Source: an uncultured Acidobacteriia bacterium (GTDB lineage Bacteria; Acidobacteriota; Terriglobia; Bryobacterales; Bryobacteraceae). Taken from it: 64,000 bases of DNA. Below the pieces are notes generated by a model, which did no database searches, had not been told where the DNA came from, and saw only the letters and a list, made by a program, of their open reading frames with translations. Of the stretch, positions 5,473 through 52,779 are shown one piece after another. Within the stretch, counting starts at the first letter, position 1. Every line of letters begins with the position of its first letter. The stretch is from assembly GCA_903828455.1 (NCBI GenBank), contig CAIKMJ010000077.1:1-64000 (forward strand). Direction: 5' to 3'. Position numbers and translations under genes: made by a program.

Positions 5473-5484
5473 TACAATAGGATT
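5473..5484 (+). promoter_or_regulatory. -10 element placing the rsh start at the transcript 5' end
   Basis: TACAAT at 5473-5478 is a near-perfect -10 hexamer and lies 6 bases before the GTG at 5485. Transcription would begin at or next to the start codon, giving a leaderless mRNA. There is no Shine-Dalgarno sequence and only a weak -35. Confidence 0.55.
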
Positions 5485-7770
5485 GTGTCTTCTTCCTCCA
5501 CCATGGACACGTTCCCGGATCCGCCGTCTCCCGGGTCTGCCGTCGGTGGCGTGTCTGAGTCCCCGGTGGCTCCTCCGCTGCCTGGCGTAGCGTCGTCCGC
5601 CGCCGAATCTGCCGAACCCGCTGAACTGCAGACTCTGCTCGCCGCCGTTCACCAGGCCCGACCGAAAGACGACCTCTCCCCGATCTCCACCGCCTACCAT
5701 TTCGCCGCCAAATATCACGAAGGCCAGCTCCGCGCTTCCGGCGAGCCGTATATGTCGCACCCCACCGCCGTGGCCGGCATCCTCGCCGCCATGCGCATGG
5801 ACGTGGTCAGCATCGAAACCGGCCTTCTGCACGATGTTGTGGAGGACACGCTCGTCACGGTTGCCGACGTGCAGAAGGCCTTCGGCGAAGATGTGGCCCG
5901 CTGTGTGGACGGCGTCACCAAACTGAGTAAGATCGATTTTCTCTCCGCCGAAGACCGTCAGGCCGAGAGCTACCGCAAGATGCTGCTCGCGATGGTCAAC
6001 GACATCCGCGTCATCATCGTCAAACTGGCCGACCGTCTCCACAACATGCGGACGCTCGATTCGCTCAGCCCCGAGCGCCAGACCAAAATCGCCAAAGAGA
6101 CGCTGGAAATTTACGCCCCCATTGCGCACCGCCTCGGCATGGGCAAGGTGCGCGGCGAACTCGAAGATCTCGCTTTCCGTTATCTCGATCCGGATGCGTG
6201 GGCCGAGATCTCCCACTCCATCGACAGCCAGCGGACAGCCAACGAAGAGTATCTCGAGCGCATGCGCCGCACAGTGGAAGAAGAACTTCGCAAGGAGGGC
6301 ATTCCCGCCCGCGTCGAATCCCGCGTCAAGCGCGCCTATTCGGTGTACCAGAAGCTGCGCAAACAGAAGATCTCGCTGGATCAGGTTTACGATCTGATGG
6401 GACTGCGGATCATCACCGATTCCGTCAAGAACTGCTACGGTGCGCTCGGCATCATCCACAACGAGTGGCGTCCCGTCCCCGGTCGCATCAAGGATTTCAT
6501 CGCGATCCCGCGCCCCAACCTGTACCAGTCGCTCCACACCTCCGTGGTGGGACCGGAGGGCCGCCACTTTGAAATTCAGATCCGCACCGATGAGATGCAC
6601 CGCATCGCGGAAGAAGGCATTGCGGCCCACTGGAAGTACAAAGAGGGCCGGCGCGGCGTACAGGACGATCAGCGCGTCGCCTGGCTCCGGCAACTCGTGG
6701 AATGGCAGCAGGAGATGCGCGATCCCGGTGAGTTCATGTCCACTCTCAAAGTGGACCTCTACCCCGAGGAAGTCTACTGCTTCACGCCCAAAGGCCGCGT
6801 CATCATCCTGCCCTCCGGTTCCAGCCCCATCGATTTTGCCTACGCGGTTCACTCGGAAGTCGGCAACACCTGCACCGGCGCCAAGATCAACGGCCGCATC
6901 GTTCCTCTGCGTTCCACGCTGCGCAATGGCGACGTCGTCGATATCCTCACCACGACCGGCCACGAGCCAAGCAAAGACTGGCTCTCCATCGTCAAGACCT
7001 CGCGCGCAAAGAACAAAATCAAGCACATCATCAACCAGAACGAGCGTGTGCGCGCCATCGAGATCGGCCAGAAGTATCTTGAGAAGGAAGCGCGCCGGCT
7101 TGGAGTCTCGCTCAGCCGCGTGAAGGCGGACGATCTGGAGGCCGTTGCCGCTGAGTACGGCCTCGGGAAGACCGAAGACCTGTACGCAGCGCTCGGATAC
7201 GGGAAATTCTCCGCCCGTCAGGTGCTGCAAAAGGCGCTGCCGGAGCAGTCGCAGCCGGAGCCGGCGCCCGTAGCACCGCCGCCTCAGCCCCGCGCCGCCG
7301 GCACCGATCTTGAAGATTCCATCAAAGTTCGCGGGGTTGACGATGTGATGGTCTACCGCGCCAAGTGCTGCAATCCCATCAAGGGCGAGGCCATCGTCGG
7401 TTACGTCACGCGCGGTAAGGGCATCGCGGTTCACTCCCGCTCGTGCACCAACGTAACGAACCTGATGTACGATTCCGAGCGGCGCATCGACGTGGAATGG
7501 GCGCGCAATACGACCGATTCCTATCCGGTCCGCATCGTCGTTCATACCGACGACCGCCCCGGCCTTCTCGCGCAGCTCACCGCTATCCTTTCGGATGAAA
7601 ACTCCAACGTGCGCAGCCTTGAAGCCCGCACCGTGATGGATGAACGCAATGACAGCGCGCTTATCGAAATGACCGTCGATGTCCGCGACAAGAAGCAACT
7701 GGAGAAACTCTGCGGCGCCATGCGGCGCGTCTCCGGCGTCCGCGACGTCGAACGCCTCGCCAACCAGTAA
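5485..7770 (+). CDS. rsh: Rsh: bifunctional (p)ppGpp synthetase/hydrolase
   Basis: RelA/SpoT homologue that makes and degrades the stringent-response alarmone (p)ppGpp. Domain order is complete. The HD hydrolase domain has H at about 92 and HDVVEDT at about 116-122, so hydrolysis should be active. The synthetase domain has the RIKDFIAIPRPNLYQSLHT loop near 334-352; its basic RIKD type matches bifunctional SpoT-like enzymes. A TGS domain lies at about 425-485, a conserved Cys-Cys block (KCCNPIKGEA) at about 627-636, and a C-terminal ACT domain from about 685. It is 761 residues, a normal length. The GTG start lies 6 bases from a -10 element; an in-frame ATG at 5503 is the alternative. It is the only Rsh in the window. 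Confidence 0.95.
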   Translation: MSSSSTMDTFPDPPSPGSAVGGVSESPVAPPLPGVASSAAESAEPAELQTLLAAVHQARPKDDLSPISTAYHFAAKYHEGQLRASGEPYMSHPTAVAGILAAMRMDVVSIETGLLHDVVEDTLVTVADVQKAFGEDVARCVDGVTKLSKIDFLSAEDRQAESYRKMLLAMVNDIRVIIVKLADRLHNMRTLDSLSPERQTKIAKETLEIYAPIAHRLGMGKVRGELEDLAFRYLDPDAWAEISHSIDSQRTANEEYLERMRRTVEEELRKEGIPARVESRVKRAYSVYQKLRKQKISLDQVYDLMGLRIITDSVKNCYGALGIIHNEWRPVPGRIKDFIAIPRPNLYQSLHTSVVGPEGRHFEIQIRTDEMHRIAEEGIAAHWKYKEGRRGVQDDQRVAWLRQLVEWQQEMRDPGEFMSTLKVDLYPEEVYCFTPKGRVIILPSGSSPIDFAYAVHSEVGNTCTGAKINGRIVPLRSTLRNGDVVDILTTTGHEPSKDWLSIVKTSRAKNKIKHIINQNERVRAIEIGQKYLEKEARRLGVSLSRVKADDLEAVAAEYGLGKTEDLYAALGYGKFSARQVLQKALPEQSQPEPAPVAPPPQPRAAGTDLEDSIKVRGVDDVMVYRAKCCNPIKGEAIVGYVTRGKGIAVHSRSCTNVTNLMYDSERRIDVEWARNTTDSYPVRIVVHTDDRPGLLAQLTAILSDENSNVRSLEARTVMDERNDSALIEMTVDVRDKKQLEKLCGAMRRVSGVRDVERLANQ

Positions 7771-7786
7771 CGCAACTGAATCAACT

Positions 7787-8155
7787 ATGACGGCACAACT
7801 CACCACCGACCCGGAACACATCGCCATCTCCAAATCGCGTGGCATCGAAATCGACTGGAAAGACGGACACCACAGCTCCTACGACATCGTCTGGCTGCGC
7901 GACTGGTGCCCGTGCGCCAACTGCACGGGTGCGCACGGCACCGAGCCGAGGCAGAAGGAATCGCTCGCCGGGAAAGCGAAGCCGGCCGACCCGTTCCCCA
8001 TGTTCAAGCCGCGCGAGCGTATGCAGAATGTGGAACCGGTCGGCAATTACGCGCTCCGCATCGTCTGGAGCGACGGCCACGCCGCGGGCATCTACTCCTG
8101 GGCTCACCTGCGGCAAATCTGTCCGTGCAATGATTGTCAAACGCGCACGGCGTAA
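7787..8155 (+). CDS. DUF971 (GBBH-like N-terminal domain) protein
   Basis: Free-standing 122-residue DUF971 protein. The fold is shared with the N-terminal zinc-binding region of gamma-butyrobetaine hydroxylase. The visible signatures are the WLRDWCPCANC segment (about 43-53), a GIYSWAHLRQICPCNDC stretch at the C-terminus, and the IDWKDGHHSSYDIVWLR core. The Cys residues could bind metal. Elsewhere such proteins are linked to Fe-S cluster maintenance and carriers, but nothing here proves that. It sits 16 bases after rsh and 3 bases before a response regulator, so it is probably co-transcribed with the regulator. Confidence 0.85.
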   Translation: MTAQLTTDPEHIAISKSRGIEIDWKDGHHSSYDIVWLRDWCPCANCTGAHGTEPRQKESLAGKAKPADPFPMFKPRERMQNVEPVGNYALRIVWSDGHAAGIYSWAHLRQICPCNDCQTRTA

Positions 8156-8158
8156 TTC

Positions 8159-8854
8159 ATGGCACGAAAAATCAGCGTCGTCGAAGACGAACCCGCGCTG
8201 GCTTCGCTCATCGAATACAACCTCTCGCAAAGCGGTTTTCAGGTGCAATTGCTGAATGGCGCCGGCGCGACGGTGCGCGAGCTCGAAGCCGCCCGGCCGG
8301 ATCTCATCGTTCTGGACGTCATGCTGCCGGGGCAGGACGGGTTTGAAGTCTGCCGCCGCATTCGCCAGTCCGAGACACTTTCCCGCACGCCGGTCATCTT
8401 TCTCACCGCGCGCGGCGATGAAATAGACCGCGTCCTCGGTCTCGAAATCGGCGGCGACGACTACATCACCAAACCCTTCAGTCCGCGCGAACTGGTCGCC
8501 CGCGTGAAGGCCCACCTGCGCCGTTCCGAGGCCGATGCCGCGCCGCAGTCCGGCGCCCTCACCTTTGGGCCGTTTCGTCTCGATAAGGCCGCGCGCCGGG
8601 TCTTTCAGAATGACCGCGAAATCGAGCTGACCTCCACCGAGTTCCGCCTGCTGGAATTCTTTCTCACTCACACCGGCACTGCGTGGTCGCGCGAACGCCT
8701 GCTGCAGGAGGTGTGGGGCGAGCAGCACTTTGTGACTCCGCGCACGGTGGATGTTCACGTCCGCCGTCTCCGCGAACAGATTGAAGAAAAGCCCGATGAA
8801 CCGGTTCGTCTGGTCACCGTCCGCGGTTTCGGCTACCGTTTCGAAACCCCGTAA
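8159..8854 (+). CDS. OmpR/PhoB-family response regulator (first of tandem pair)
   Basis: DNA-binding response regulator of 231 residues. The receiver domain carries the acidic pair E9/D10, phosphoacceptor D53 (LIVLDVMLPG), and KPF at about 104. A winged-helix Trans_reg_C domain follows (about 135-230), with recognition region RTVDVHVRRLREQIE and the C-terminal RGFGYRF hairpin. The ATG lies 3 bases after the DUF971 stop. No histidine kinase gene is adjacent. A second regulator of the same type follows 99 bases on, behind a Pho-box-like repeat, so a PhoB-like role is plausible but not proven. Confidence 0.93.
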   Translation: MARKISVVEDEPALASLIEYNLSQSGFQVQLLNGAGATVRELEAARPDLIVLDVMLPGQDGFEVCRRIRQSETLSRTPVIFLTARGDEIDRVLGLEIGGDDYITKPFSPRELVARVKAHLRRSEADAAPQSGALTFGPFRLDKAARRVFQNDREIELTSTEFRLLEFFLTHTGTAWSRERLLQEVWGEQHFVTPRTVDVHVRRLREQIEEKPDEPVRLVTVRGFGYRFETP

Positions 8855-8889
8855 TTCCGCGCTGCTCCGCCTCACGACTTCACTCAGCC

Positions 8890-8933
8890 TTCACCGTGCT
8901 GTAACCAGGCCGTAACCTGTTTTCCGCTACGCT
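8890..8933 (+). promoter_or_regulatory. Pho-box-like triple direct repeat and -10 element
   Basis: Three hexamers with exact 11-base spacing, TTCACC (8890), GTAACC (8901) and GTAACC (8912), are followed after 10 bases by a -10-like TACGCT (8928-8933). Eleven-base direct repeats overlapping the -35 position are the binding mode of PhoB/PhoP-type OmpR-family regulators. The site lies between two such regulator genes and probably controls the second one. Confidence 0.6.
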
Positions 8934-8953
8934 GAAACTGTCGGAAGCCCGAA

Positions 8954-9706
8954 ATGTCGGGGATAGGAATCGCCGTGAACAAAAGAATCGTCCTGATCGA
9001 AGACGACGCAGACCTTTACGCCCTTCTCAAGTACAACCTCGAAAAGGAAGGTTTTGCGCTCAACGGCTCGCAGACCGGCCGCGGCGCGCTCGATCTGTGC
9101 CGTCGCGTGCGGCCCGATCTCATCCTGCTCGATATCATGCTGCCGGACTCCGACGGGCTCGATATCTGCAAAGGCATCCGGAACGATTCGGAACTGGCAC
9201 AAACACCGGTCATTTTCCTGACCGCGCGCGGCTCGGAGACGGACCGCATCGTCGGCCTCGAACTCGGCGCCAACGATTACATCGTGAAGCCGTTCTTTAT
9301 CCGCGAGCTGATCGCCCGCATCCGTCTGCAGTTGCGCTCGCAGAACGTGCCGGCGCGCGTCCTGAAGGCCGGCGGCGTGGAACTGGACCGCAGCAGTTGC
9401 GTGGTGCGGCTCGATGGCGAAGTGCTGGCACTCACCGCCACCGAATTCCGGCTCCTCGAATTTCTGATGACTCGCCCGGGCGTCGTCTTCAGCCGCGAAC
9501 AGCTGCTGAATGCCGTCTGGGGTCAGGATCGCGCCATCACGGACCGCACGGTGGACGTCTACATCCTGCGGCTGCGCCAGAAGGTGGAAAAAGACGCTTC
9601 CGGACCCCGCCTGATCCACTCGATCCGCGGTTTCGGCTATTCCTTCGAACCCAAGCCTGCTGTGCCCGCCGCGGCCGCCGAGCAGAGCGTCGCACAAGCC
9701 CAATAG
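8954..9706 (+). CDS. OmpR/PhoB-family response regulator (second of tandem pair)
   Basis: DNA-binding response regulator, 250 residues from the ATG at 8954. A GTG at 8975, seven codons in and with its own AGGA, is an equally good start and begins right at the receiver core (KRIVLIEDD). Phosphoacceptor is D60 (LILLDIMLPD), with KPF in the last receiver loop. The winged-helix domain has the recognition segment RTVDVYILRLRQKVE. A short Ala-rich tail extends beyond the usual C-terminal RGFGYSF. The 11-base direct repeats at 8890-8917 mark it as a likely target of itself or of the first regulator. No cognate sensor kinase is in the window. Confidence 0.93.
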   Translation: MSGIGIAVNKRIVLIEDDADLYALLKYNLEKEGFALNGSQTGRGALDLCRRVRPDLILLDIMLPDSDGLDICKGIRNDSELAQTPVIFLTARGSETDRIVGLELGANDYIVKPFFIRELIARIRLQLRSQNVPARVLKAGGVELDRSSCVVRLDGEVLALTATEFRLLEFLMTRPGVVFSREQLLNAVWGQDRAITDRTVDVYILRLRQKVEKDASGPRLIHSIRGFGYSFEPKPAVPAAAAEQSVAQAQ

Positions 9707-9750
9707 CGGCGATTTGTTCGCCAGCGGCTCGGTGTATTTCAGTCGTATGC

Positions 9751-9763
9751 TACTCTGAGCCAC
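9751..9763 (+). promoter_or_regulatory. -10 element next to the sua5/yrdC-family start
   Basis: TACTCT (9751-9756) lies 7 bases before the GTG at 9764, and TATGCT overlaps just upstream. There is no Shine-Dalgarno sequence, so the transcript is probably leaderless or has a leader of only a few bases. Confidence 0.45.
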
Positions 9764-10411
9764 GTGGCTACCGATCTCGTGGAATTCGATCCTCTCGATC
9801 CACCGGCTGACGTTCTCGACCGCGCCGCCACCGCCATCCGCCGCGGAAAAGTGGTCGCCATCCCCACGGACGCGCTTTACATTCTTGCGGCCGATCCATT
9901 CAACATGCATGCCGTCCGCCAGGTTTACCTCGCCAAAGGCCGGCAGATTCAGCGCGCGCTGCCACTGCTGGTGCGCGATCCCATGATGGTGGAAGACCTG
10001 GCCAGCGATATCTCGGTGCGTTTCAAAATGCTCACCCGCCGCTTCTGGCCCGGGCCGCTCACCATCATCCTGCCCGCTTCCTCCGGCGTGCCGCTGCGCG
10101 CCACCGGCAACACCGGAAGGCTTGCCGTGCGCCAGTCGCGTTCGCCGCTTGTCGATGAGCTCATCACGCGGCTCAATCAGCCAATTGTGGCGACCAGCGC
10201 CAACATTTCGGGCCGCCCCACCTGCAGCAGCGGCATCGAAGTCTTCGGCATGATGGATGGCACCGTGGATCTTGTGCTGGATGGAGGCTCCTGTCAGGGC
10301 CCCGGCGCAAGCACCGTCGATATCACCGGGCCCGACTGGCAGATGATCCGCGAAGGCGCGATCACGCAGAAAGAAATCGCCGCCTGCCTCGATTCGCCCT
10401 TCGACAGTTAA
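9764..10411 (+). CDS. Sua5/YciO/YrdC-family L-threonylcarbamoyladenylate synthase
   Basis: Member of the Sua5/YrdC family, which makes threonylcarbamoyl-AMP from threonine, bicarbonate and ATP for the t6A37 modification of tRNAs reading ANN codons. The single 215-residue YrdC domain carries the conserved basic/Thr N-terminal region (GKVVAIPTDALYIL), KGRQIQRALPLLV, the FWPGPLTIILPAS block and the ATSANISGRP motif. No Sua5-type C-terminal domain is present, so it is of the short TsaC/YciO type. YciO-like paralogues are the main alternative. It converges with maoC across a shared hairpin. Confidence 0.88.
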   Translation: MATDLVEFDPLDPPADVLDRAATAIRRGKVVAIPTDALYILAADPFNMHAVRQVYLAKGRQIQRALPLLVRDPMMVEDLASDISVRFKMLTRRFWPGPLTIILPASSGVPLRATGNTGRLAVRQSRSPLVDELITRLNQPIVATSANISGRPTCSSGIEVFGMMDGTVDLVLDGGSCQGPGASTVDITGPDWQMIREGAITQKEIAACLDSPFDS

Positions 10412-10414
10412 AAT

Positions 10415-10432
10415 CCGGCGGTCAGACGCCGG
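10415..10432. terminator. Hairpin between convergent yrdC-like and maoC genes
   Basis: CCGGCG (10415-10420) pairs with CGCCGG (10427-10432) around a 6-base loop. Read on the minus strand it is followed by ATTTTAA, so it can end the maoC transcript; it may also slow plus-strand transcription. It overlaps the maoC stop codon. Confidence 0.5.
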
Positions 10433-10877: not shown

Positions 10878-10883
10878 AGGCGG

Positions 10884-12652: not shown

Positions 12653-12669
12653 GGTTGTTCCTGTTCCCG

Positions 12670-13617
12670 TCAGGCGACGCCGGTGCGCCGTTCGGCGGCT
12701 TCGATGGTGTTGCTCATCAGCATCGCGATGGTGAGCGGCCCCACGCCGCCCGGCACCGGCGTATAGGCGGACGCCAGTCGCGCCATATCCACCGGATTGA
12801 CGTCGCCCACCAGCAGACTGCCGTTTTTATCGAACACCGCCAGCCGTTCCGGCGAGAAGATTCGTTCCGCTTCGGTCCGCGAATCGATGCGGTTGACCCC
12901 AACGTCCACCACCACGGCGCCCGGCCGGATGTGGTTCGCGTTCAGCAGCGCCGGCCGCCCGATCGCCGCCACCAGGATATCCGCCGTGCGGCAAACCGCC
13001 GCCAGATCGGGCGTCTTCGAGTGGCAGATCGTCACGGTAGCGTTTTCCTGGAGTAGCAGCAATGACATGGGCTTGCCCACGATGTCGCTGCGCCCGGCCA
13101 CCACGGCGTGCTTCCCGGCCATCGCAATGCCGTAGTGCTTCAGCATGCGAATCACGCCCGCCGGCGTGCAGGGCTTCAGTCCGGGCCGTCCCATGGTCAA
13201 CAGCCCCACGTTGAAGGGATGGAATCCGTCCACGTCCTTTTCGGGCAGCACCGCGCCCAGCACCCGCTGCGTGTCGATGTGGGCGGGCAGCGGCAGTTGC
13301 ACCAGTATGGCGTCGATCTCCTCGCGTCCGTTGAGCTCCTGCACGATGGCGAGCAGCGCTTCGGTCGTGATCTCCGCCGGACGCGTGATCTGTTCGCTGT
13401 GGATGCCGAGTTCGGCGGCCGTCAGCGTCTTGCTGCGGACATAGCTTTCCGATGCCGGATCATTGCCCACCAGCACCACGGCGAGGCCCGGAGCGCGCCC
13501 GGCGTGGCTGCGGAGCCGCTCCACGCGCGGGCGTATTTCTGATTTAATCTGGTCGCGGACGGTCTTCCCGTCCAGAATCTTCGCCTGAGAACTCGGGCCT
13601 GCGGAAATCGGAGACAC
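12670..13617 (-). CDS. folD: FolD: methylene-tetrahydrofolate dehydrogenase/cyclohydrolase
   Basis: Bifunctional cytosolic enzyme interconverting 5,10-methylene-, 5,10-methenyl- and 10-formyl-tetrahydrofolate. Visible signatures are YVRSKTLTAAELGI with the catalytic Lys, QLPLPAHID, the PCTPAGVIRML segment and the GRSDIVGKPMS cofactor motif. I chose the GTG at 13617 because a TACAGT -10 lies 7 bases upstream and the protein would then begin MSPISAGPSSQAKILDG. The open frame reaches a TTG at 13635 as an alternative. It heads the coaE-htrA-maoC run. Confidence 0.93.
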   Translation of the reverse strand: MSPISAGPSSQAKILDGKTVRDQIKSEIRPRVERLRSHAGRAPGLAVVLVGNDPASESYVRSKTLTAAELGIHSEQITRPAEITTEALLAIVQELNGREEIDAILVQLPLPAHIDTQRVLGAVLPEKDVDGFHPFNVGLLTMGRPGLKPCTPAGVIRMLKHYGIAMAGKHAVVAGRSDIVGKPMSLLLLQENATVTICHSKTPDLAAVCRTADILVAAIGRPALLNANHIRPGAVVVDVGVNRIDSRTEAERIFSPERLAVFDKNGSLLVGDVNPVDMARLASAYTPVPGGVGPLTIAMLMSNTIEAAERRTGVA

Positions 13618-13630
13618 GATTCTCACTGTA
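13618..13630 (-). promoter_or_regulatory. -10 element next to the folD start
   Basis: On the minus strand TACAGT (13630-13625) lies 7 bases before the GTG at 13617. No Shine-Dalgarno sequence is seen. This fits a leaderless folD transcript and argues for the GTG over the upstream TTG. Confidence 0.45.
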
Positions 13631-13659
13631 CACAACCGCCTCCGGCGACGCCGGGTTGG

Positions 13660-15067: not shown

Positions 15068-15499
15068 CTAATTTTCCGCGCGCTTCTCGGTGGGATAACC
15101 CTTGTCGATCCAGTCGGCCTTCAGGTTGTCCGGTATCACCATCGCCCGCACGCGGGTGAAACCCATCTCGTGCAATGCCGCAAACGCCGGCCGGATGTTC
15201 GGACACTTGTCCCAGGGGCAACAGCCGCAGTAAAGCACGATGTCGCGGTCCTTCGGCTGCCCCGCCACGGCCTTCTTCAGTTCGGCGATCCCTTCAGCCT
15301 TCGACCCCGGCCCGGCGTACTTCGAACCCGTAATGTGCGCCGCCCGGTACAGCACGGGGAATCCAACCTGGAGAAGCAGCGGCGACTTCACGTCTTTCGC
15401 CACCTGTTCCGGCTGGACAAGATCTGTCGCGGTCCATGGATCGGCCGCCAGCAGAAGAGCGGCGCAGGCCACCAGCACGGCAGGGAAGCGGTGTGTCAT
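15068..15499 (-). CDS. Exported rhodanese-like protein
   Basis: Rhodanese-domain protein of 143 residues with an N-terminal signal peptide (about 1-18, ending ALLLAA). The active-site loop reads YCGCCPWDKCPN (about 90-101), an unusually Cys-rich version of the CxxxxR/K sulfurtransferase loop. Such proteins move sulfane sulfur or bind anions; here it would act outside the cytoplasm. A TAGAAT -10 lies 6 bases before the ATG. It lies downstream of the efflux pump genes on the same strand but has its own promoter. Confidence 0.85.
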   Translation of the reverse strand: MTHRFPAVLVACAALLLAADPWTATDLVQPEQVAKDVKSPLLLQVGFPVLYRAAHITGSKYAGPGSKAEGIAELKKAVAGQPKDRDIVLYCGCCPWDKCPNIRPAFAALHEMGFTRVRAMVIPDNLKADWIDKGYPTEKRAEN

Positions 15500-15511
15500 A
15501 AGCCGATTCTA
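15500..15511 (-). promoter_or_regulatory. -10 element next to the rhodanese start
   Basis: On the minus strand TAGAAT (15511-15506) lies 6 bases before the ATG at 15499, with no ribosome site. This is the leaderless arrangement seen at several other heads in this window. Confidence 0.5.
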
Positions 15512-25111: not shown

Positions 25112-25741
25112 CTACAGGACGGCCGGCTTGTGTCCGAATCCGTTGGTCGGCGCCGCCCGCTTCATCTTCGCTATATACTGCCGCTTCGGAACATACTGTT
25201 CCATGAACTCGGCGAAACTGTGCAGCCGGTCCGCTTCCGACCGGCTCCGCTGCATCAGATTCTGAAACTCCAGGTCGTCGACGGCGCGCGCCAGCCGGAA
25301 ACTCAGCAACGGATCGTCCGCGTCCACGCCGCCGGCTTCCGTCTCGTCGCCTTCCGCTCGCCGCATCCGCGCAAACGCATCCATCGCCCGCTGCCGCAGT
25401 TCCGGCGCGACCGGCGCGGTGTCTTCATCCCCGAAATACTCCACCTCGCCCCGCAGATAAGCCTTCTCTTCGTTGAGCGAGCGGATCGCAAACCGCCGCT
25501 GTCCGCGCGTCACTACGTCGAAGCGCCCGTCCGGATAGCGCTGCACCACTTCCTCCACCAGCACCGTGCAGCCGGAATTCACGATCCCGCCGTCCTTCGC
25601 CAGCACGATGCCGAACTCGCTGCCCGCGGCCTCCGCCTCGCCCACCATCTCTCTGTAACGCTCTTCGTAAATATGCAGCGGCACCACGCTGCCGGGAAAC
25701 ACCACGAGCTGCAGAGGGAACAGCGGAAGCAGCCTGGACAT
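25112..25741 (-). CDS. Lon protease substrate-binding-domain protein
   Basis: Stand-alone LON N-terminal (PUA-like) domain protein of 209 residues, lacking ATPase and protease parts. It starts MSRLLPLFPLQLVVFPGSVVPL, the classic LON-N opening, with LHIYEERYREMV shortly after. Such proteins occur in many bacteria with unknown function. The open frame continues far upstream to 26422, but the ATG at 25741 begins the domain exactly and has a GATAAT -10 at 6 bases with a GTGACG -35 at 17-base spacing, so I place the start there. Confidence 0.88.
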   Translation of the reverse strand: MSRLLPLFPLQLVVFPGSVVPLHIYEERYREMVGEAEAAGSEFGIVLAKDGGIVNSGCTVLVEEVVQRYPDGRFDVVTRGQRRFAIRSLNEEKAYLRGEVEYFGDEDTAPVAPELRQRAMDAFARMRRAEGDETEAGGVDADDPLLSFRLARAVDDLEFQNLMQRSRSEADRLHSFAEFMEQYVPKRQYIAKMKRAAPTNGFGHKPAVL

Positions 25742-25776
25742 ATCGCCATTATCGCGTTTCCCGCCCGCTGCGTCAC
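25742..25776 (-). promoter_or_regulatory. Leaderless-type promoter of the Lon-domain gene
   Basis: Reading the minus strand: GTGACG (25776-25771) as -35, a 17-base spacer, GATAAT (25753-25748) as -10, then 6 bases to the ATG at 25741. This is the best-formed example of the -10-next-to-start arrangement in the window. Confidence 0.6.
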
Positions 25777-30063: not shown

Positions 30064-32283
30064 GTGGAAGGACCCGGGTCAGTCAGTTCCCACAGTTCCG
30101 CGGTAAGGCGTCTCACGTACCTTTCCGCGGTGCTGCTGTTTTGGGGCGTTGCCATCTTCGCCAAGCTGGTCTCTCTCCAGGTCATCCAGCACGGCAAGTA
30201 CGCGGCGATCGCGCGCTCGCAGCAGGAACATCACGTCGATATCCCCGCTCCCCGCGGTTCCATCTTCGATCGCAACGGGCAGGCCCTCGCCATCAGCGTC
30301 CCGGTCGATTCCGTTTCCGTCAATCCCCAGCAGATCGCCAACATCCGCGTTGCCACGCAGGTTCTCGGCAACACGCTGAATCTCGATCAGACCGTACTTT
30401 ACGACCGCCTCACCTGGGCCCACGATCATCACAAAGGCTTCCTCTGGGTGAAGCGCCGCATCGATCCCTTCGAAACCGAGCGCCTGAAAGCCCTTCACCT
30501 CGACTGGGTGCAGTTCACCACCGAAAGCCTCCGCCACTACCCCAAGCAGCAGGTCGCCTCGCACGTTCTCGGCGGCGTCTTTCGCGATGAAGAGGGAGCC
30601 GGCGGCATTGAGCGAACCATGGAGCCCGTCCTCAAAGGGCGCAACGGTTCGGAAAACGACGTCATGGACGTCAAACGCCGCGGCTTCGAATCCCATGTCG
30701 ACAGCGCCGCCCAGGCCGGCGTCCCGCTCACTCTTACCATCGATGAGCGCATGCAGTTCGTTGCCGAGCGCGAACTCAAGGCCGGCGTCGAAGCCAAACA
30801 CGCCCGCAGCGGCAGCGCCATCGTGATGAATCCCTACACCGGCGAAATTCTGGCGCTCGCCAACTATCCCGATTACGATCCCAACCGCCCGCCCGTCGCC
30901 GGCGAAGATCCCATCGCGCGCCTCAACCTCGGCGCGCAGGTTCCCTTCGAACCCGGCTCCGTCTTCAAAGTCGTCACCCTGACCGCGGCGCTCGAAACCA
31001 CCGACCTCCGTCCGGAATCCATGATCGCCACCGGCAGCGGTACCCTCAAGCTCCCCGGCCGCATCGTGCACGAATCGCATCACGGCTACGGCACCATCTC
31101 GATGGCCGACGTGCTCGCCAAGTCCAGCAACATCGGCGCCATCCTCATCGGCACCCGCGTGGGCCGCGAAAATATGTACGACTACGCGCGCCGCTTCGGC
31201 TTCGGTCAGAAGACCGGCCTGCCGCTGCCCGCCGAATCCGGCGGCAAACTTCGCCCGCTGGAAAACAAGAAGAACCCGAAGGATCAGTGGGGCACCACGT
31301 CGCTCGCTTCCATCTCGATGGGCCAGGAGGTCAGCGTGACCTCGATTCAGCTCGCCCGCCTCGGCGCGGCTATCGCCAACGGCGGCATGCTCGTCCAGCC
31401 CCGCCTGGTGCTGAAGCGCGGCGATAAGGCCGAGCCCGCCCCCGCGCCCGTCCGCATCATCAAACCCGAAACCGCCATCACCATGCGCCAGATGATGGAA
31501 GGCGTCGTCCTCAACGGCACCGGCCGCCTGCACGCCCGCCTCGATGGCTACACGTCCGGCGGCAAGACCGGCACTGCGCAGATCTTCGAAAACGGGCACT
31601 ACACCCACAACTACAACGCCTCGTTCCTCGGCTTCGCCCCTGTCACCAACCCCGCGCTCGTCGTGCTGGTCACGATCCACCACACCTCCGGCGATGCCGG
31701 CATGGGTTCCGACGCCGCCGCGCCTGTATTCCAGAAGATCGCCCAGGAAGCGCTGCGCATGCTCGACGTGCCCAAGGACATTCCCGAGTCGCAGACCGCT
31801 GCGGCGAAGAAGCCCGCGCCTCCGCAGCCCGGCGAATTCGAAGGCGACCTGGCCATCGCCGGCCTTGGCGCGAGCAGCATCATGGAATCCGATCCGGACG
31901 TCAAAGCCATGCTCGTCGCGCAGATGAAGCCGAAGGTGGATCCCGATGAGATTCCCGCCGCGCCGCCGCTGCTGGCCTCCGCCAGGCCGCCGCTCTCCGC
32001 CGCCGCGCCGATGCCCGCCGCTGCTTCGATGCCTGCCGCAGCTTCGATGCCTGCCGCTGCACCCATGCCTGCCGCAGCTTCGATGCCTGCCGCAGCGCCC
32101 GTGCCGGCCGGCCCCGTGGTCCCCGATTTCCGCGGCAAGTCGCTGCGAGATGTGATGGCCGACGCCGCGGCCAGCGGCATCGACGTCATGGTGCAGGGCA
32201 CCGGCGTCGCCCGTGCCCAGTTGCCGCTGCCCGGCAGTCCACTTCATTCGGGGGAGCGAATCCGTATCGTATTTACGCGCTGA
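30064..32283 (+). CDS. ftsI: FtsI-like penicillin-binding protein (PBP3) with PASTA domain
   Basis: Septal peptidoglycan transpeptidase. A membrane helix lies near residues 18-38. The dimerisation domain starts with HVDIPAPRGSIFDRNG. The transpeptidase domain has SVFK (active Ser299), SSN (KSSNIGA) and KTGTAQ (Lys501), so it should be active. After about residue 570 comes a linker including six 18-base repeats (SMPAAA type), then one PASTA domain (about 684-739, VVPDFRGKSLRDV). Good ribosome site AAGGAG ends five bases before the GTG. The 739 residues exceed typical FtsI because of linker and PASTA. The frame stays open upstream to 29962, but without a start codon. Confidence 0.94.
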   Translation: MEGPGSVSSHSSAVRRLTYLSAVLLFWGVAIFAKLVSLQVIQHGKYAAIARSQQEHHVDIPAPRGSIFDRNGQALAISVPVDSVSVNPQQIANIRVATQVLGNTLNLDQTVLYDRLTWAHDHHKGFLWVKRRIDPFETERLKALHLDWVQFTTESLRHYPKQQVASHVLGGVFRDEEGAGGIERTMEPVLKGRNGSENDVMDVKRRGFESHVDSAAQAGVPLTLTIDERMQFVAERELKAGVEAKHARSGSAIVMNPYTGEILALANYPDYDPNRPPVAGEDPIARLNLGAQVPFEPGSVFKVVTLTAALETTDLRPESMIATGSGTLKLPGRIVHESHHGYGTISMADVLAKSSNIGAILIGTRVGRENMYDYARRFGFGQKTGLPLPAESGGKLRPLENKKNPKDQWGTTSLASISMGQEVSVTSIQLARLGAAIANGGMLVQPRLVLKRGDKAEPAPAPVRIIKPETAITMRQMMEGVVLNGTGRLHARLDGYTSGGKTGTAQIFENGHYTHNYNASFLGFAPVTNPALVVLVTIHHTSGDAGMGSDAAAPVFQKIAQEALRMLDVPKDIPESQTAAAKKPAPPQPGEFEGDLAIAGLGASSIMESDPDVKAMLVAQMKPKVDPDEIPAAPPLLASARPPLSAAAPMPAAASMPAAASMPAAAPMPAAASMPAAAPVPAGPVVPDFRGKSLRDVMADAAASGIDVMVQGTGVARAQLPLPGSPLHSGERIRIVFTR
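32005..32112 (+). repeat. 18-bp repeats coding a Pro/Ala linker in FtsI
   Basis: Six units of 18 bases (core GCTTCGATGCCTGCCGCA) run from 32005 to 32112 and encode six-residue repeats of the A-(S/P)-M-P-A-A kind. Units 2, 3 and 5 are nearly identical, which suggests recent slippage expansion. They form a flexible spacer between the transpeptidase and PASTA domains. Confidence 0.9.
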
Positions 32284-44657: not shown

Positions 44658-44663
44658 CGGTCT

Positions 44664-45311: not shown

Positions 45312-45334
45312 AGAGAACCCTCCGGTACGGCAAA

Positions 45335-46208: not shown

Positions 46209-46283
46209 CTTAACTCCCAGCTTTCCTTGCGTAGCAGAAACGTGACCAAACTCCCCGGCTATATCTCCCTGCACAATCACAGG

Positions 46284-46299
46284 TTTACGTGCGTCATAT
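46284..46299 (-). promoter_or_regulatory. Shared 16-base element, copy 2
   Basis: Minus-strand ATATGACGCACGTAAA, 76 bases upstream of the receiver-PilZ start. It differs at two positions from the copy before the LuxR-type gene. Both contain CACGTAAA. Confidence 0.4.
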
Positions 46300-46393
46300 C
46301 CGAAGTTATCGTGACAAACTGTCGTCTTCGCTATAACTCCTGTGACACTCCCGCCCGTTAGACCCGCGTCGCGCTGATTCGTTGTATGTCCCA

Positions 46394-48479: not shown

Positions 48480-49499
48480 TCAACTCACGCCCGAAGTCTC
48501 TTCCCGCTCCCCCGGCACCAGCGCCGCCACCCGCCGCGCCGTCTCCGGCGCCAGCAGGATTCCGTTTCGGTAGTGACCGTATGCCAGCCACACCTGCGTC
48601 CCCGGTACCCGTTCAATCACCGGAACGTCACCGTCAACGCCCGGCCGGAATCCGTTCCATCGCTCCACCGGTTCCTGCCCTGCCAGCGCCGGCAGCAGCC
48701 CTTCCGCCCGTCGCCGCACGTCCGCAATCGCGCCCTCGTCCAGCGCCCTGTCGAATCCCGCGTGTTCGGTCGTCGTGCCGGCAATCAGCATCCCGTTCGT
48801 CCGCTGCAGCAGATACGTTCCGTTATGCCGCAAAATCGTCCCCAGCGCGCCCGGCTTTTCGCGATACGAAACCAGATGTCCGCGTACCGGCCGCGACTCC
48901 CGCGCTCCCGGCCACAGCCGCGAACTCCACGCCCCCGCCGCCAGCAGCACACCCTTGTCCGCATAACGGCCCAGCGTCGTCCACACCCCGCGTCCCAGCG
49001 CCAGAATCTCCCGCACCGGCTCCTGCTCGCGGATCTCGACGCCCCACCGCACGCACGCCTCCCGCAGCGCAGCCGTCACCTCGCGCGGATTCACCATCGC
49101 ATCGTCCGGATAAAACCGCGCCGCCACCGCGCCCTCGCGCGAACACGCCTCCGACCGGATCCCCATCCCCGCCTGCAGCGCCGCCTTCTCCTCCAGCGCC
49201 ACCGCTTCGGCCTCCGTCAGGGCAACTTCAACCGCGCCGCACGCCCGGTAATCGATCGCAACGCCCGACGCCTCCCGCAGCTCTTCCACGAACTCCGGCC
49301 ACAGCCCGAGGCTCGCCGTCGCCATCCGCCCGTGCGGTGTATCTTCCTCCACCTCGCCGCCCGGCGCCAGCATCCCGGCCCCGGCCCAACTGGCCTCCGA
49401 ACCGGTCGCCGCCGCATCGAAGAGCGTCACGTCCACGCCCTTCTGCGCCAGTCGCCACGCGCACGCCAGTCCGATGATTCCCCCGCCGACAACGATCAC
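48480..49499 (-). CDS. thiO: Glycine oxidase ThiO
   Basis: FAD-dependent oxidase that turns glycine into iminoglycine for the thiazole half of thiamine. The N-terminal dinucleotide motif VVGGGIIGLACAWRLAQ is followed by TLFDA, GSEASWAGAGMLAPGGE, and near the end WNGFRPGVDGDVPVIE and YGHYRNGILLAP, typical of ThiO. Length 339. The GTG at 49499 starts right at the FAD motif and has TACAGT 6 bases upstream. thiG lies 0.9 kb away on the same strand, with rnpB in between. Confidence 0.9.
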   Translation of the reverse strand: MIVVGGGIIGLACAWRLAQKGVDVTLFDAAATGSEASWAGAGMLAPGGEVEEDTPHGRMATASLGLWPEFVEELREASGVAIDYRACGAVEVALTEAEAVALEEKAALQAGMGIRSEACSREGAVAARFYPDDAMVNPREVTAALREACVRWGVEIREQEPVREILALGRGVWTTLGRYADKGVLLAAGAWSSRLWPGARESRPVRGHLVSYREKPGALGTILRHNGTYLLQRTNGMLIAGTTTEHAGFDRALDEGAIADVRRRAEGLLPALAGQEPVERWNGFRPGVDGDVPVIERVPGTQVWLAYGHYRNGILLAPETARRVAALVPGEREETSGVS

Positions 49500-49511
49500 A
49501 TCTTTACTGTA
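49500..49511 (-). promoter_or_regulatory. -10 element next to the thiO start
   Basis: Minus-strand TACAGT (49511-49506) lies 6 bases before the GTG at 49499, with no ribosome site between. This predicts a leaderless thiO mRNA, separate from the rnpB transcript that ends about 140 bases upstream. Confidence 0.5.
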
Positions 49512-49653
49512 ACTGTGCCGCCCGCAAGAAAGGCCGATCGCCGCATGGCCCGCAAGCCGTCACGCCTCGGTAAATGGATCGCAAAAGGAAGGAACGCAAC
49601 AGGAGCCAGCGCCATGTCGCGAAGCCGCGGCCGCGCGCCGTCCGGTCCAGGGC

Positions 49654-49680
49654 AAAACGGCTGCCGTTTCAGGCAGCCGT
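49654..49680 (-). terminator. Terminator of the RNase P RNA gene
   Basis: On the minus strand ACGGCTGCC (49680-49672) pairs with GGCAGCCGT (49665-49657) around a 6-base loop, then TTTT. It lies 23 bases beyond the 3' end of the RNase P RNA. Confidence 0.75.
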
Positions 49681-49702
49681 CGTATGAAGTTCAATCGATT
49701 AC

Positions 49703-50081
49703 GGCAGGCGAGGACTATAAGCCGGTTTTTGTACCCTTGCGGGCGACAGCCATTCGTCTACTCCGTACATTACTGTACGGCTCTAGCGACCTACCCGGAA
49801 GTTTAACGGAGCGGGCCGCTCCTTCTCCCCTATTTGGTCTTGCTCCGCGTGGGGTTTGCCCTGCCATCCGGATTACCCCGGACGCGGTGCGCTCTTACCG
49901 CACCTTTTCACCCTTACCTGCGCCGAAGCGCCGGCGGTTCGTTTTCTGTGGTACTTTCCGTGAAAGCCCCTTTGAGGGACCCCCCCCGGCCGTTAGCCGG
50001 CACGCTGCCCTGTGGAGACCGGACTTTCCTCTCGCACCCGGTTGAAGCCGGAAGCCAGCGGCCGTCCATCCGTCGCCTGCC
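49703..50081 (-). ncRNA. rnpB: RNase P RNA (bacterial type A)
   Basis: Catalytic RNA of ribonuclease P, which cuts the 5' leader from tRNA precursors. Minus-strand signatures are GAGGAAAGTCCGG (50031-50019), the stretch with AAGGGTGAAAAGGTGCGGT and GAGCGCACC in the middle, and the 3' ACAAAAACCGGCTTATAG (49732-49715). The ends were set by the P1 helix: GGCAGGCGA at the 5' end pairs perfectly with TCGCCTGCC at the 3' end, giving about 379 nt. A terminator follows. No protein gene overlaps it. Confidence 0.95.
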
Positions 50082-50284
50082 AGAACAAGTCTCCCACACA
50101 GCGTGCCCGCAGTCACGGAACCCGCGGAAATATCTGCGCTTTGGACTCAATGGATTACGCTTCCGCCCCCGTCACAGCCGTCACCGCGCGTGGTACCTGT
50201 GGGTCGGGAGAAACAACTTGTGCGGCAATCCGACGGCAGCTTCGAACGGCCCTGTGCCATCCACGGGCCCCCGATGTTATCATC

Positions 50285-50310
50285 AAAAAACAGGGCGTTT
50301 TCCCGCCCTG
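50285..50310 (-). terminator. Terminator downstream of thiG, beyond the tRNA
   Basis: On the minus strand CAGGGCG (50310-50304) and CGCCCTG (50297-50291) pair around a 6-base loop and are followed by TTTTTT (50290-50285). Since thiG ends at 50402, its transcript would run across the antisense strand of the tRNA-Met gene before stopping here. Confidence 0.75.
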
Positions 50311-50321
50311 CACCCTTCAGT

Positions 50322-50398
50322 GGCGGGGTAGCTCAGCTGGCTAGAGCGACGGTCTCATAATCCGTAGGTCGGGAGTTCGAGTCTCCCTCCCGCCACCA
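50322..50398 (+). tRNA. tRNA-Met (anticodon CAT), probably elongator type
   Basis: A 77-base cloverleaf including encoded CCA. Acceptor GGCGGGG pairs with the CCCGCC end, D-arm GCTCAGCTGGCTAGAGC, anticodon CAT at 50356-50358, T-arm GGGAGTTCGAGTCTCCC. A fully paired first acceptor base argues against an initiator tRNA. A lysidine-modified tRNA-Ile that reads ATA has the same anticodon and cannot be fully excluded. It lies opposite to, and 3 bases from, the thiG end. Confidence 0.95.
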
Positions 50399-50401
50399 GA
50401 T

Positions 50402-51178
50402 TCACCCTCTTCCAATCACACCGCTCAGCGGACTGCTCGCGCTCGCATACAGCCGCCGGTCCATCCGCCCGGCCTCGAACGCCAGCCGCCCGGCTTCCAC
50501 GCCCAGCTTCATCGCCAGCGCCATCTTCTCCGCATCCTCGGCCGCCGCCACCGCCGTGTTCATCAGGATGCCGTCCGCGCCCATCTCCATCGCGATGGCC
50601 GCGTCCGACGCCGTGCCAACACCGGCGTCCACAATCAGCGGGACTTCCGTAATCATCTCCCGCATGATCCGCAGATTCGTCGGATTCTGGATCCCCAGCC
50701 CCGACCCGATCGGCGCCGCCAGCGGCATCACCGCCGCCGCGCCCGCATCGATCAGCCGCTTCGCATTGACCACGTCGTCGTTCGTGTACGGCAACACAAT
50801 GAAGCCTTCCTTCGCCAGCACCCGCGTGGCTTCTACAAGGCCCGCGTTGTCGGGGAACAGCGTCTTCTCGTCGCCGATCACTTCGAGCTTCACCCAGTTG
50901 GAAAGCCCGACCTCGCGGCCGAGGCGCGCCGTCCGGATCGCGTCGTCCGCCGTGTAGCAGCCCGCCGTGTTCGGCAGGATGAACATCTTCTCGCGGTCGA
51001 TGTAGTCAAGCATCGACTCTTTCGTCTTATCGGTGAGATTGACCCGCCGCACCGCGACCGTCACCACCTCGGCGCCCGACGCCGCATGGCAGCGCGCCAT
51101 CTCTTCGAAGCTGCGGTACTTGCCCGTACCGATCATGAGCCGTGACCGGAATGTCCGCCCGGCAATCGTCAATGACAT
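50402..51178 (-). CDS. thiG: Thiazole synthase ThiG
   Basis: Makes the thiazole phosphate of thiamine from deoxyxylulose phosphate, ThiS-thiocarboxylate and iminoglycine (supplied by ThiO). Motifs: [39 protein letters not shown] with the Schiff-base Lys, and [11 protein letters not shown]. The ATG at 51178 ([10 protein letters not shown]) gives 258 residues, the usual size; the open frame upstream is longer. TACACT lies 6 bases before the ATG. ThiS is not in the immediate neighbourhood. Confidence 0.94.
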
Positions 51179-51190
51179 AGTTCCAGTGTA
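51179..51190 (-). promoter_or_regulatory. -10 element next to the thiG start
   Basis: Minus-strand TACACT (51190-51185) lies 6 bases before the ATG at 51178. This matches the arrangement at thiO. I see no TPP riboswitch in the short space, which a leaderless start would in any case exclude. Confidence 0.5.
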
Positions 51191-51243
51191 CGTGCTGAAC
51201 CCGCGCATCCTGCGCTCAAACAACGTGTGCGATTCGCCCGTGC

Positions 51244-51282
51244 GCGGAAGACAAGAGCGGAAGACAAGAGCGGAAGACAAGA
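51244..51282 (+). repeat. Three 13-bp tandem units between thiG and the small membrane gene
   Basis: GCGGAAGACAAGA is repeated exactly at 51244, 51257 and 51270. It is followed by an A/G-rich tract which, on the minus strand, forms the pyrimidine tail of a terminator. Confidence 0.95.
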
Positions 51283-51314
51283 AAAGAAAGGGGGCCGCCT
51301 GTGACAGCGGCCCC
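51275..51314 (-). terminator. Terminator of the small membrane protein gene
   Basis: On the minus strand GGGGCCGC (51314-51307) pairs with GCGGCCCC (51298-51291) around 8 bases and is followed by CTTTCTTTTCTTG. A second small hairpin, GACTGAG-AAA-CTCAGTC (51357-51341), precedes it. Together they close the gene at 51448-51732. Confidence 0.7.
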
Positions 51315-51360
51315 GGGTTCGTTTGTGCGCCAAAAGTTCTGACTGAGTTTCTCAGTCGCC

Positions 51361-51408
51361 GATGTTGTCAGTCGCAGATGTTGTCAATCAGCGATGTTGT
51401 CAGTCAGC
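51361..51408 (+). repeat. 16-bp tandem repeats in the 3' region
   Basis: Three units beginning GATGTTGTCA(G/A)TC at 51361, 51377 and 51393. They lie directly beside the 16-base repeats that begin at the neighbouring stop codon, so both arrays share the period. Confidence 0.9.
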
Positions 51409-51453
51409 GTTGCTGTTAGCCAATGCTGCTTTTAACCAATGCTGCTTTTAACC
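51409..51453 (-). repeat. Tandem repeat of the small membrane gene's stop region
   Basis: On the minus strand CATTGGTTAAAAGCAG is repeated, followed by a diverged CATTGGCTAACAGCAA. The first copy contains the last codons and the TAA (51450-51448) of the small membrane protein gene. The three TAA codons are 16 bases apart and so occupy all three frames. Confidence 0.85.
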
Positions 51454-51732
51454 AATGAGGTGACGTGCATGCTCCTGCAGACTGTTGTAGATGTAGATCG
51501 ACGCCAGCACCAGGCCCGTCGCGACGGTGATCACCGTAAGCGTCTTGCCCCAGCGGTCGATCTTATCCATCCGGCCGAAGAATGCCTGCTGTTCGGTAAT
51601 CATTCTCTGTTCGCCCGCCGCGATATGAATGTTGTCATCCTCGTGCAGCGACGCGATGTTCCGGAATATCGCCAGCCCGATCACCACAACCGCCAGGCAA
51701 GCCCATGCAATCACAAAACTCGTATACGGCAT
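51448..51732 (-). CDS. Small two-helix membrane protein of unknown function
   Basis: A 94-residue protein with one helix at about 4-24 (FVIAWACLAVVVIGLAIF), a charged loop of about 40 residues containing HEDDNIHIAAGEQRMITEQQ, and a second helix at about 66-86 (LTVITVATGLVLASIYIY). I do not recognise the family. The ATG at 51732 has GGGAGG at 7 bases; a TTG two codons upstream is in frame. It stands alone between convergent and divergent neighbours, with its own double terminator. The stop codon region is part of a tandem repeat. Confidence 0.7.
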   Translation of the reverse strand: MPYTSFVIAWACLAVVVIGLAIFRNIASLHEDDNIHIAAGEQRMITEQQAFFGRMDKIDRWGKTLTVITVATGLVLASIYIYNSLQEHARHLIG

Positions 51733-51813
51733 ATCCAAACCTCCCGATCCGTACTAGTGCATCTGGCTCGCCAAAGCCTGCGCCCCCCGGCGCACATGCC
51801 ATCCTGAAGGTCT

Positions 51814-52599
51814 ATGCCCTCGCAAATCATACAGGTAGACGCATTTACGTCGCGGCCCTTCCGCGGCAACCCCGCGGCGGTCTCGATCCTCGCTGCGCCA
51901 CCTGACGAAGTCTGGATGCGCGAAGTGGCGCGGGAGATGAACCTCTCGGAAACCGCCTTCCTTTATCCCGAAGCCGGCGGCTACCGGTTGCGCTGGCTCA
52001 CGCCCGCCGTCGAGGTCGATCTCTGCGGCCACGCCACTCTCGCCGCCGCCCACGTGCTGTGGGAAGACGGCCACATCGCCCCCGATCAGCCCGCCCGCTT
52101 CCACACGCGCAGCGGCCTGCTCACCTGCACCCGCCACGGCGACTGGATCGAAATGGACTTCCCCGCCAAACTCGCCGCCCCGGCCGAGCCTCCGCCGCAG
52201 CTTACCGAAGCCCTCGGCGCCGAACTTCTCTTCGTCGGCCGAAATCAGTTCGACTACCTCGTCGAAGTCGCCTCCGAAGACGTGCTGCGTGCCCTCGCGC
52301 CCAACCATCACCTGCTGCGCCAGTTGCCGGTGCGCGGCGTCATCGTGACCGCCCGCGGCCGCGACCACGACTTCGTCTCCCGCTTCTTCGCCCCCGGCGC
52401 CGGTGTCGATGAAGACCCGGTCACCGGCTCGGCCCACACCGCTCTCGCCCCGTACTGGGGTCCGCGCCTCGGCAGGGAAGCGATGACCGGCTATCAGGCC
52501 TCGGCCCGCGGCGGCATCGTCAAAGTCCGGTTGCTCGGCGACCGCGTGATCCTCGCCGGCCAGGCCGTCACCGTCCTGCGCGGCGAGTTGCTGGCCTGA
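51814..52599 (+). CDS. PhzF-family isomerase-like protein
   Basis: Phenazine biosynthesis PhzF-like protein of 261 residues, with the two-lobed diaminopimelate-epimerase fold. IIQVDAFTSRPFRGNPAAV opens the protein, the catalytic Glu is E46 in NLSETAFLYP, and DLCGHATLAAAHVL and DPVTGSAHTALAPYW are family motifs. Most members are not in phenazine pathways, and no phz genes are here, so the substrate is unknown. It is transcribed away from the small membrane protein. Confidence 0.9.
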   Translation: MPSQIIQVDAFTSRPFRGNPAAVSILAAPPDEVWMREVAREMNLSETAFLYPEAGGYRLRWLTPAVEVDLCGHATLAAAHVLWEDGHIAPDQPARFHTRSGLLTCTRHGDWIEMDFPAKLAAPAEPPPQLTEALGAELLFVGRNQFDYLVEVASEDVLRALAPNHHLLRQLPVRGVIVTARGRDHDFVSRFFAPGAGVDEDPVTGSAHTALAPYWGPRLGREAMTGYQASARGGIVKVRLLGDRVILAGQAVTVLRGELLA

Positions 52600-52621
52600 C
52601 CGCGCTCCGCCTCGCGTGGCA

Positions 52622-52635
52622 TACACTTGAGAAAC
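52622..52635 (+). promoter_or_regulatory. -10 element next to the 47-residue ORF
   Basis: TACACT (52622-52627) lies 8 bases before the GTG at 52636. It probably drives the microprotein-symporter operon with almost no 5' leader. Confidence 0.4.
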
Positions 52636-52779
52636 GTGAAGTTCAAGCTGCCGCCCGAAACCCACGACAACGAACCGCCGCCCATCCTCGGCTCGTGGCG
52701 CAACATCTACGTCGTTGTCCTCGCCTGGCTGGCGTTCCTGATCCTGATCTTCTACGCCTTCACTCGTTACTTCGCATGA
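52636..52779 (+). CDS. 47-residue single-helix membrane microprotein
   Basis: A GTG-started ORF encoding 47 residues: a hydrophilic N-terminus (KFKLPPETHDNEPPPILGSW) and one strong helix (about 25-42) rich in Val, Leu, Ile and Phe, ending in TRYFA. It lies 13 bases before an SSS symporter gene on the same strand. Small helical partner subunits encoded just before SSS transporters are known in other bacteria, so an accessory subunit is likely. Codon use with G/C in third positions matches neighbours. The TACACT at 8 bases upstream supports expression. Confidence 0.65.
   Translation: MKFKLPPETHDNEPPPILGSWRNIYVVVLAWLAFLILIFYAFTRYFA

Follow-up and report, generated by a model that had tools for sequence, protein, structure and literature searches.

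Hexamers of -10 type directly before start codons suggest leaderless messages in an uncultured Acidobacteriia bacterium

Gene heads with a -10-type hexamer

The window analysed here is a stretch of 64,000 nucleotides (contig CAIKMJ010000077.1, positions 1 to 64,000) from an uncultured Acidobacteriia bacterium of the family Bryobacteraceae, and it belongs to an assembly, GCA_903828455.1, of 4.40 Mb in 80 contigs. Eight of its genes carry a hexamer of the form TANNNT, or GATAAT in one case, with six to eight bases separating it from the start codon (Table 1). We call this hexamer the box, and the number of bases between the box and the start codon the gap. The original prediction described the eight heads with exactly the hexamers and distances that are found in the window, and took them to be promoters of leaderless messages, that is, of messages that open with their start codon.

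The Pfam matches of the window proteins agree overall with the names of the genes. The match of the rhodanese-like protein is slightly below the cut-off, at 21.8 against 22.2 bits, that of the thiO-like protein is to the DAO-type FAD oxidoreductases, and the 47-residue open reading frame (ORF) has no Pfam match.

Table 1. Boxes and start codons of the window: the eight heads of the original prediction, a response-regulator gene, and two further candidates
Gene	Coordinates	Strand	Box, gap and start codon
rsh (RelA/SpoT)	5473..5487	+	TACAAT-6-GTG, start 5485
Response-regulator gene RR_8954	8928..8977	+	TACGCT 8928-8933; called ATG 8954, relative-matching GTG 8975
yrdC/Sua5-like gene	9751..9766	+	TACTCT-7-GTG, start 9764
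folD	13615..13630	-	TACAGT (13630-13625), 7 bases, GTG start 13617
Rhodanese-like gene	15497..15511	-	TAGAAT (15511-15506), 6 bases, ATG start 15499
LON substrate-binding-domain gene	25739..25776	-	GTGACG-17-GATAAT (25753-25748)-6-ATG, start 25741
Penicillin-binding protein gene (candidate only)	30118..30132	+	TACCTT-6-GTG 30130
thiO-like oxidoreductase	49497..49511	-	TACAGT (49511-49506), 6 bases, GTG start 49499
thiG	51176..51190	-	TACACT (51190-51185), 6 bases, ATG start 51178
47-residue ORF	52622..52638	+	TACACT-8-GTG, start 52636
Candidate only	61327..61343	-	TACGAT (61343-61338), 8 bases, ATG 61329

Conservation of the box in orthologs

The strongest evidence comes from the heads of orthologous genes. 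Orthologs were taken from 19 genomes of the genus, the window's own included, and for rsh from 31 relatives; each was searched, around the homologous position, for in-frame starts with a TANNNT hexamer 5 to 9 bases ahead of them. Heads at contig ends are excluded: two of rsh, two of folD, one of thiG and one of the Lon-domain gene.

Five genes keep the box. It is found in all 17 usable genus relatives for thiG, in all 16 usable ones for folD, in 15 of 16 for the rhodanese gene and in 14 of 18 for yrdC; for rsh, 15 of the 16 usable relatives from the genus keep the box together with a GTG at a gap of 6 or 7. The five genes together have the box in 77 of 83 ortholog heads, and the 25 bases upstream of it show a mere 30-35% identity across these genomes. 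The relatives' GTG of folD lies 30 bases further inward on the aligned protein than that of the window, and the place of the rsh start varies among relatives: box and start thus shift together.

The count of 15 of 16 for rsh leaves out one genome and ten loci of another family (L062-L071); among these ten, only some of which were read in the correct orientation, there is no ATG or GTG head of the leaderless type. The 16th relative (L051) has TAAAAT at a gap of 6 from a GTG that lies 327 bases ahead of the place where the start is expected.

The Lon-domain gene keeps its own form of the hexamer. TANNNT is present in 2 of 16 usable relatives and.ATAAT, at a gap of 5 to 9 before the ATG, in 12 of 16: nine of these have GATAAT, the others a different.ATAAT, though not TATAAT. 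The site is possibly that of another sigma factor, or of a regulator. Immediately upstream of the box, some relatives have GGAAACGC.

Heads used as controls have few boxes: 1 of 19 for DUF971, 1 of 17 for RR_8159, 2 of 17 for coaE, and 0 of 1 for maoC (maoC_10422), for which just one of 18 relatives is usable.

Enrichment across the genome

Genes were called from codon statistics and the type of start codon, with both Shine-Dalgarno (SD) sites and -10 boxes ignored. For a stretch of E. coli with 42 annotated starts, this caller agrees with the annotation on 37 of 41 comparable starts. The sample consists of the window and 40 other stretches of the genome, 753 kb in all, or about 17% of the genome.

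A TANNNT hexamer at gap 6-8 precedes 59 of the 623 genes of this sample. The mean over 40 dinucleotide shuffles is 11.3 and their maximum 16; the count at other upstream positions is 12.2. When any in-frame ATG or GTG near the called start is allowed, the count becomes 73 of 623, against 16.6 expected. The excess thus amounts to about 7.5-9% of genes, an estimate that may be too low because start calls are imperfect. That such heads are far more frequent than chance predicts, as had been claimed, is borne out by these numbers, and the enrichment at six to seven bases on which the claim depended is present in this part of the genome.

The window behaves like the rest of the sample: 7 of its 55 called starts have TANNNT at gap 6-8, in agreement with 53 of 571 outside it. 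The caller places the starts of rsh (5503), thiG (51136) and the Lon-domain gene (26278) elsewhere than claimed, and the seven are consequently five of the eight claimed heads and two others, at 30130 and 61329.

The same script was applied to other genomes. Another member of the genus (G005) has the box at gap 6-8 in 23 of 308 heads, with a shuffle mean of 5.9 and a maximum of 16, and a genome from another family of the order (G022) has it in 27 of 302, against 4.8 in shuffles. On plasmid MP1 of D. radiodurans the count is 12 of 130 against 1.7, and eight heads have the box at gap 6. The called starts of E. coli show no excess (4 of 131 against 6.2). When the 1233 genes of the three acidobacterial genomes are pooled, the gaps 6, 7 and 8 hold 46, 33 and 33 boxes; gap 9 forms a shoulder with 23, and each gap from 20 to 44 holds 3 to 15.

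Start codons and ribosome sites behind the box

The pooled genomes also allow a comparison of how often the box stands before in-frame and before out-of-frame start triplets (p values are one-sided). The box is enriched before in-frame ATG, with 105 of 1230 against 9 of 599 (p 1e-10), and before in-frame GTG, with 37 of 716 against 11 of 700 (p 1e-4); CTG shows no enrichment (15 of 954 against 15 of 1121, p 0.4). Every box-bearing head of rsh (15), yrdC (14) and folD (16) starts with GTG. Such conserved GUG starts are a less expected feature of these genes.

SD-like 4-mers are rarer in heads with a box than in boxless heads, 16 of 109 against 320 of 818 (p 2e-7), by a lenient rule that finds them in 213 of 623 observed heads and in 126.6 of 623 in shuffles. 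The original prediction added that genes inside nearby operons do have good ribosome sites, and this stands in part. For genes at most 50 bases behind a gene on the same strand (n=203), SD-like 4-mers are present in 80, against 120 of the 423 others; the same followers also have an excess of TANNNT at gap 5-8, with 15 against 4.2. A small-subunit (SSU) search of the assembly yielded no 16S rRNA; of 14 control genomes, the same search detected the SSU in just 9.

The free positions of the hexamer lean to the letters of a sigma-70 -10 box. Over 112 hexamers, A occupies positions 4 and 5 in 48% and 44% of cases; hexamers at gap 24-45 have it there in 33% and 29%, and those within genes in 14% and 22%. 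The sole other promoter signal found is a weak extended -10 (TGn), in 10 of 82 against 4.0.

Leaderless genes as the probable explanation, and the alternatives

At the textbook spacing between the -10 box and +1, a gap of 6 makes the first base of the start codon the +1 position. We infer that the heads are very probably those of ordinary leaderless genes, whose AUG or GUG coincides with +1 or lies very close to it. The box, a TANNNT that often has A as its fourth and fifth letters, would be a -10 element of sigma-70 type; since it ends 6-8 bases before the start codon, RNA polymerase would begin with the first letter of the ATG or GTG itself, or one to two bases earlier, the messenger would open with its start codon, and the ribosome would accept a 5'-terminal AUG or GUG without an SD site. 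The 5' end of the RNA is here deduced from the usual distance between -10 and +1, and the behaviour of the ribosome from that of mycobacteria. With the peak in the gap, the in-frame ATG and GTG, the scarcity of SD sites and the conservation in orthologs, wide use of leaderless messages is the best reading of the sequence, "wide" being, by our estimate, roughly 7.5-9% of genes.

Several observations weigh against this reading. The box of thiO is mixed among relatives, with 8 of 17 at gap 5-9, three of these before TTG. The 47-residue ORF has a box in none of 17 relatives, and its protein is present in 18 of the 19 genus genomes, its own included. Among the 14 usable relatives for RR_8954, which was picked as a negative control, 8 have the box. 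Before TTG, enrichment is borderline, with 17 of 495 in frame against 15 of 818 out of frame (one-sided p 0.05), and the looser in-frame count gives E. coli 10 of 131 against 7.1. There is no -35 element at a spacer of 14-20, where TTGNNN occurs in 6 of 82 against 9.0 and TTGAC in 0 of 82 against 0.8; a -35 scan of 256 tetramers has a best p of 0.006 before correction, and none survives correction; and in the profile by position, no upstream position exceeds 0.08 bits. Finally, AA...A and T...AT are each found in 45 of 626 heads at gap 6-8, and in 27-39 and 23-29, respectively, at the other tested distances. As for the eight heads themselves, the proposal that they are leaderless is sustained by relatives for the five genes that strongly keep the box and, in the form.ATAAT, for the Lon-domain gene; it is partly sustained for thiO, and not for the 47-residue ORF.

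The frequency of AA...A and T...AT would suit an explanation in which TANNNT is no promoter, but an AT-rich and unstructured stretch that aids ribosome binding on a longer leader. Leaders that are AT-rich and devoid of SD sites are known elsewhere, and excerpts of PMC9581028 describe non-canonical AT-rich sites. We consider this explanation improbable, since the signal is specific to the hexamer: of 626 heads, 60 have TA...T at gap 6-8, while TA..T, TA....T, AT...T and TT...A are found there 22, 21, 18 and 13 times. The box is moreover kept in orthologs whose upstream DNA has diverged, and its free positions favour -10 letters.

Another explanation, which has still less in its favour, accepts the boxes as real -10 elements and supposes that the starts are miscalled: the true start codon would lie further downstream, behind a short leader of the usual kind. 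Start calling is indeed imperfect in GC-rich DNA, and our own caller took downstream ATGs for rsh and thiG, 6 and 14 codons in. However, the downstream in-frame starts of the rsh relatives are scattered, and few of them have an SD-like site, whereas the GTG at gap 6-7 is nearly constant; the ThiG proteins of genus relatives align from residue 1 of the leaderless start; and the box prefers in-frame over out-of-frame ATG and GTG.

Chance matches to a loose pattern, in heads selected for having it, may explain single heads such as the 47-residue ORF, which relatives leave unsupported, but as a general account chance is hardly credible, being rejected by the dinucleotide shuffles, shifted gaps, permuted motifs, out-of-frame starts and E. 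coli that serve as controls, by an excess in four samples (two genus members, another family and the D. radiodurans plasmid) that is missing at the called starts of E. coli, and by the conserved box of the orthologs.

Two possible leader states behind one box

The leaderless arrangement is not the only one in which the box is found. The hexamers of the RR_8954 relatives lie at gap 9 of a GTG. The window's box lies 20 bases before the called ATG and 41 bases before the GTG that matches that of the relatives, and this GTG is preceded by a purine-rich stretch. In our reading, RR_8954 has a leader in the window and comes close to being leaderless in other genomes. The upstream region (8890-8933) contains the repeats CTGTAAC and CCGTAAC, 11 bases apart, and a CTGTAAC-like motif also precedes the genes of several relatives. 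These repeats may be an operator, which we take, as a guess, to be Pho-box-like.

Four yrdC relatives (L145, L147, L148 and L151) that have no GTG at gap 6-8 have TACGCT 18-19 bases before a TTG, and they appear to use this TTG.

The gene thiG offers the largest comparison. Named genomes were scanned with a ThiG alignment, and the best 80 of 592 matches were kept, of which 78 have usable heads; all results of this paragraph and the next refer to these matches. The nearest rows are metagenome-assembled genomes (MAGs) of Terriglobia bacteria, at 92% and 91% identity, followed by Bryobacterales and Solibacteraceae MAGs. The box is at gap 5-9 in 41 heads, at gap 13-19 in 15 and at gap 11 in one; it is absent within gap 4-25 in 21. 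The thiG head of Paracidobacterium acidisoli (L298), a cultured member of the Terriglobia, belongs to the gap-6 type. SD-like sites are present in 3 of the 41 heads with a gap of 5-9 and in 13 of the 15 with a gap of 13-19, a difference whose p value, 2e-8, is overstated because the heads are related. Two assignments call for care: one of the 41 matches (L327, Nitrospirota, with a TTG 39 bases inside) is probably due to chance, and that of L326 to the mini-leader class, with gap 13-19, depends on a TTG. Control motifs give 27 for TT...A and 19 for AT...A, against 41 for the box; we read the TT...A count as largely an overlap of TTACAAT.

Placed on a quick tree of 79 ThiG rows, the three states require 10 changes, against a mean of 32 when shuffled. 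The window shares a branch with the named Bryobacterales and Solibacteraceae rows, in which 19 of 20 are leaderless and one, a Bryobacter MAG (L280), has a mini-leader. A starred branch that comprises most rows of the Acidobacteriaceae and those of the Korobacteraceae is leaderless throughout (20 of 20), and in another starred branch 11 of 12 rows have the mini-leader. This alternation of thiG between leaderless and SD mini-leader heads is also a less expected feature.

A mini-leader class is not seen genome-wide: TANNNT is at gap 18-20 in 45 of the 1233 pooled heads, and the 13 of them that are SD-like make the group no richer in SD than the boxless heads. The idea of two states thus comes from a few genes. 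We put forward tentatively, and with somewhat more doubt than confidence, that in Terriglobia one -10 box may serve two discrete states, leaderless (gap 6-8) or with an SD mini-leader of about 7-13 bases (gap 13-19), with few intermediates; that genes such as thiG, yrdC and the response-regulator gene would switch between leaderless and leadered states; and that a 5'-terminal GUG would be a normal start for acidobacterial ribosomes, as for mycobacterial ones and unlike those of E. coli, for which it is poor.

Neighbouring features

The candidate start of the penicillin-binding protein gene at 30130 lies inside a longer frame that opens upstream, at 30064. An RNase P RNA (class A, - strand, 49702-50078) and a tRNA-Met (50322-50398) are found between the thiO-like gene and thiG. 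The 47-residue ORF (52636-52779) has a hydrophobic C-terminal half and directly precedes a sodium:solute symporter gene (52793); it is perhaps a small subunit of the symporter.

Comparison with known systems

Leaderless genes as such are not new, and their presence in this phylum has been predicted before. According to the excerpts of Zheng et al. 2011 (PMC3160421), leaderless (TA-led) genes are predicted in 3 of 3 Acidobacteria, with a mean of 13.3% (9.7-19.4), and the extent to which TA signals replace SD signals among orthologous genes was measured, in Actinobacteria. Among the matches listed in the open-licence literature, none gives an experimental mapping of start sites in Acidobacteria, and excerpts of PMC10783764 contain nothing on leaderless genes in Acidobacteria. 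What the present comparison of genomes adds is evidence from orthologs that the spacing of box and start is under selection, together with conserved GTG starts and two putative leader states.

If the leaderless reading is right, a real share of the starts in Acidobacteriota, a soil phylum that is large and for the most part uncultured, should be annotated by the -10 box and not by SD sites, and the genes concerned include a stringent-response regulator and cofactor genes. Conserved 5'-terminal GUG starts would then exist outside Actinobacteria, and orthologs with differing leader states would make the needs of the ribosome on a leaderless message testable.

The likeness to the TA-led genes of Zheng et al. 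(excerpts of PMC3160421) is close: the first T of TANNNT lies there about 12 bases before the start, which corresponds to gap 6 here, and the pattern is that of high-GC genomes, with little information in the middle of the hexamer. The differences are the share of genes, here 7.5-9% by a simpler start caller, and the gene-by-gene conservation, here within one uncultured genus.

The mycobacterial messages described in excerpts of Shell et al. 2015 (PMC4633059) start with ATG or GTG and not with TTG or CTG, and leaderless GTG is cited there as weak in E. coli. Both systems have GTG besides ATG at the leaderless position, and TTG and CTG may be little used or unused here as well; they differ in that three thiO relatives have a TTG at gap 6 here, and in that RNA ends, ribosome profiling and reporters support the mycobacterial case, while ours is drawn from sequence.

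For D. radiodurans, the leaderless share of 46.1% published for the genome (excerpts of PMC3160421) far exceeds the share that our script finds for plasmid MP1 or for the present genome. With the same script, MP1 shows a peak at gap 6, and an excess similar in size to that of the present genome.

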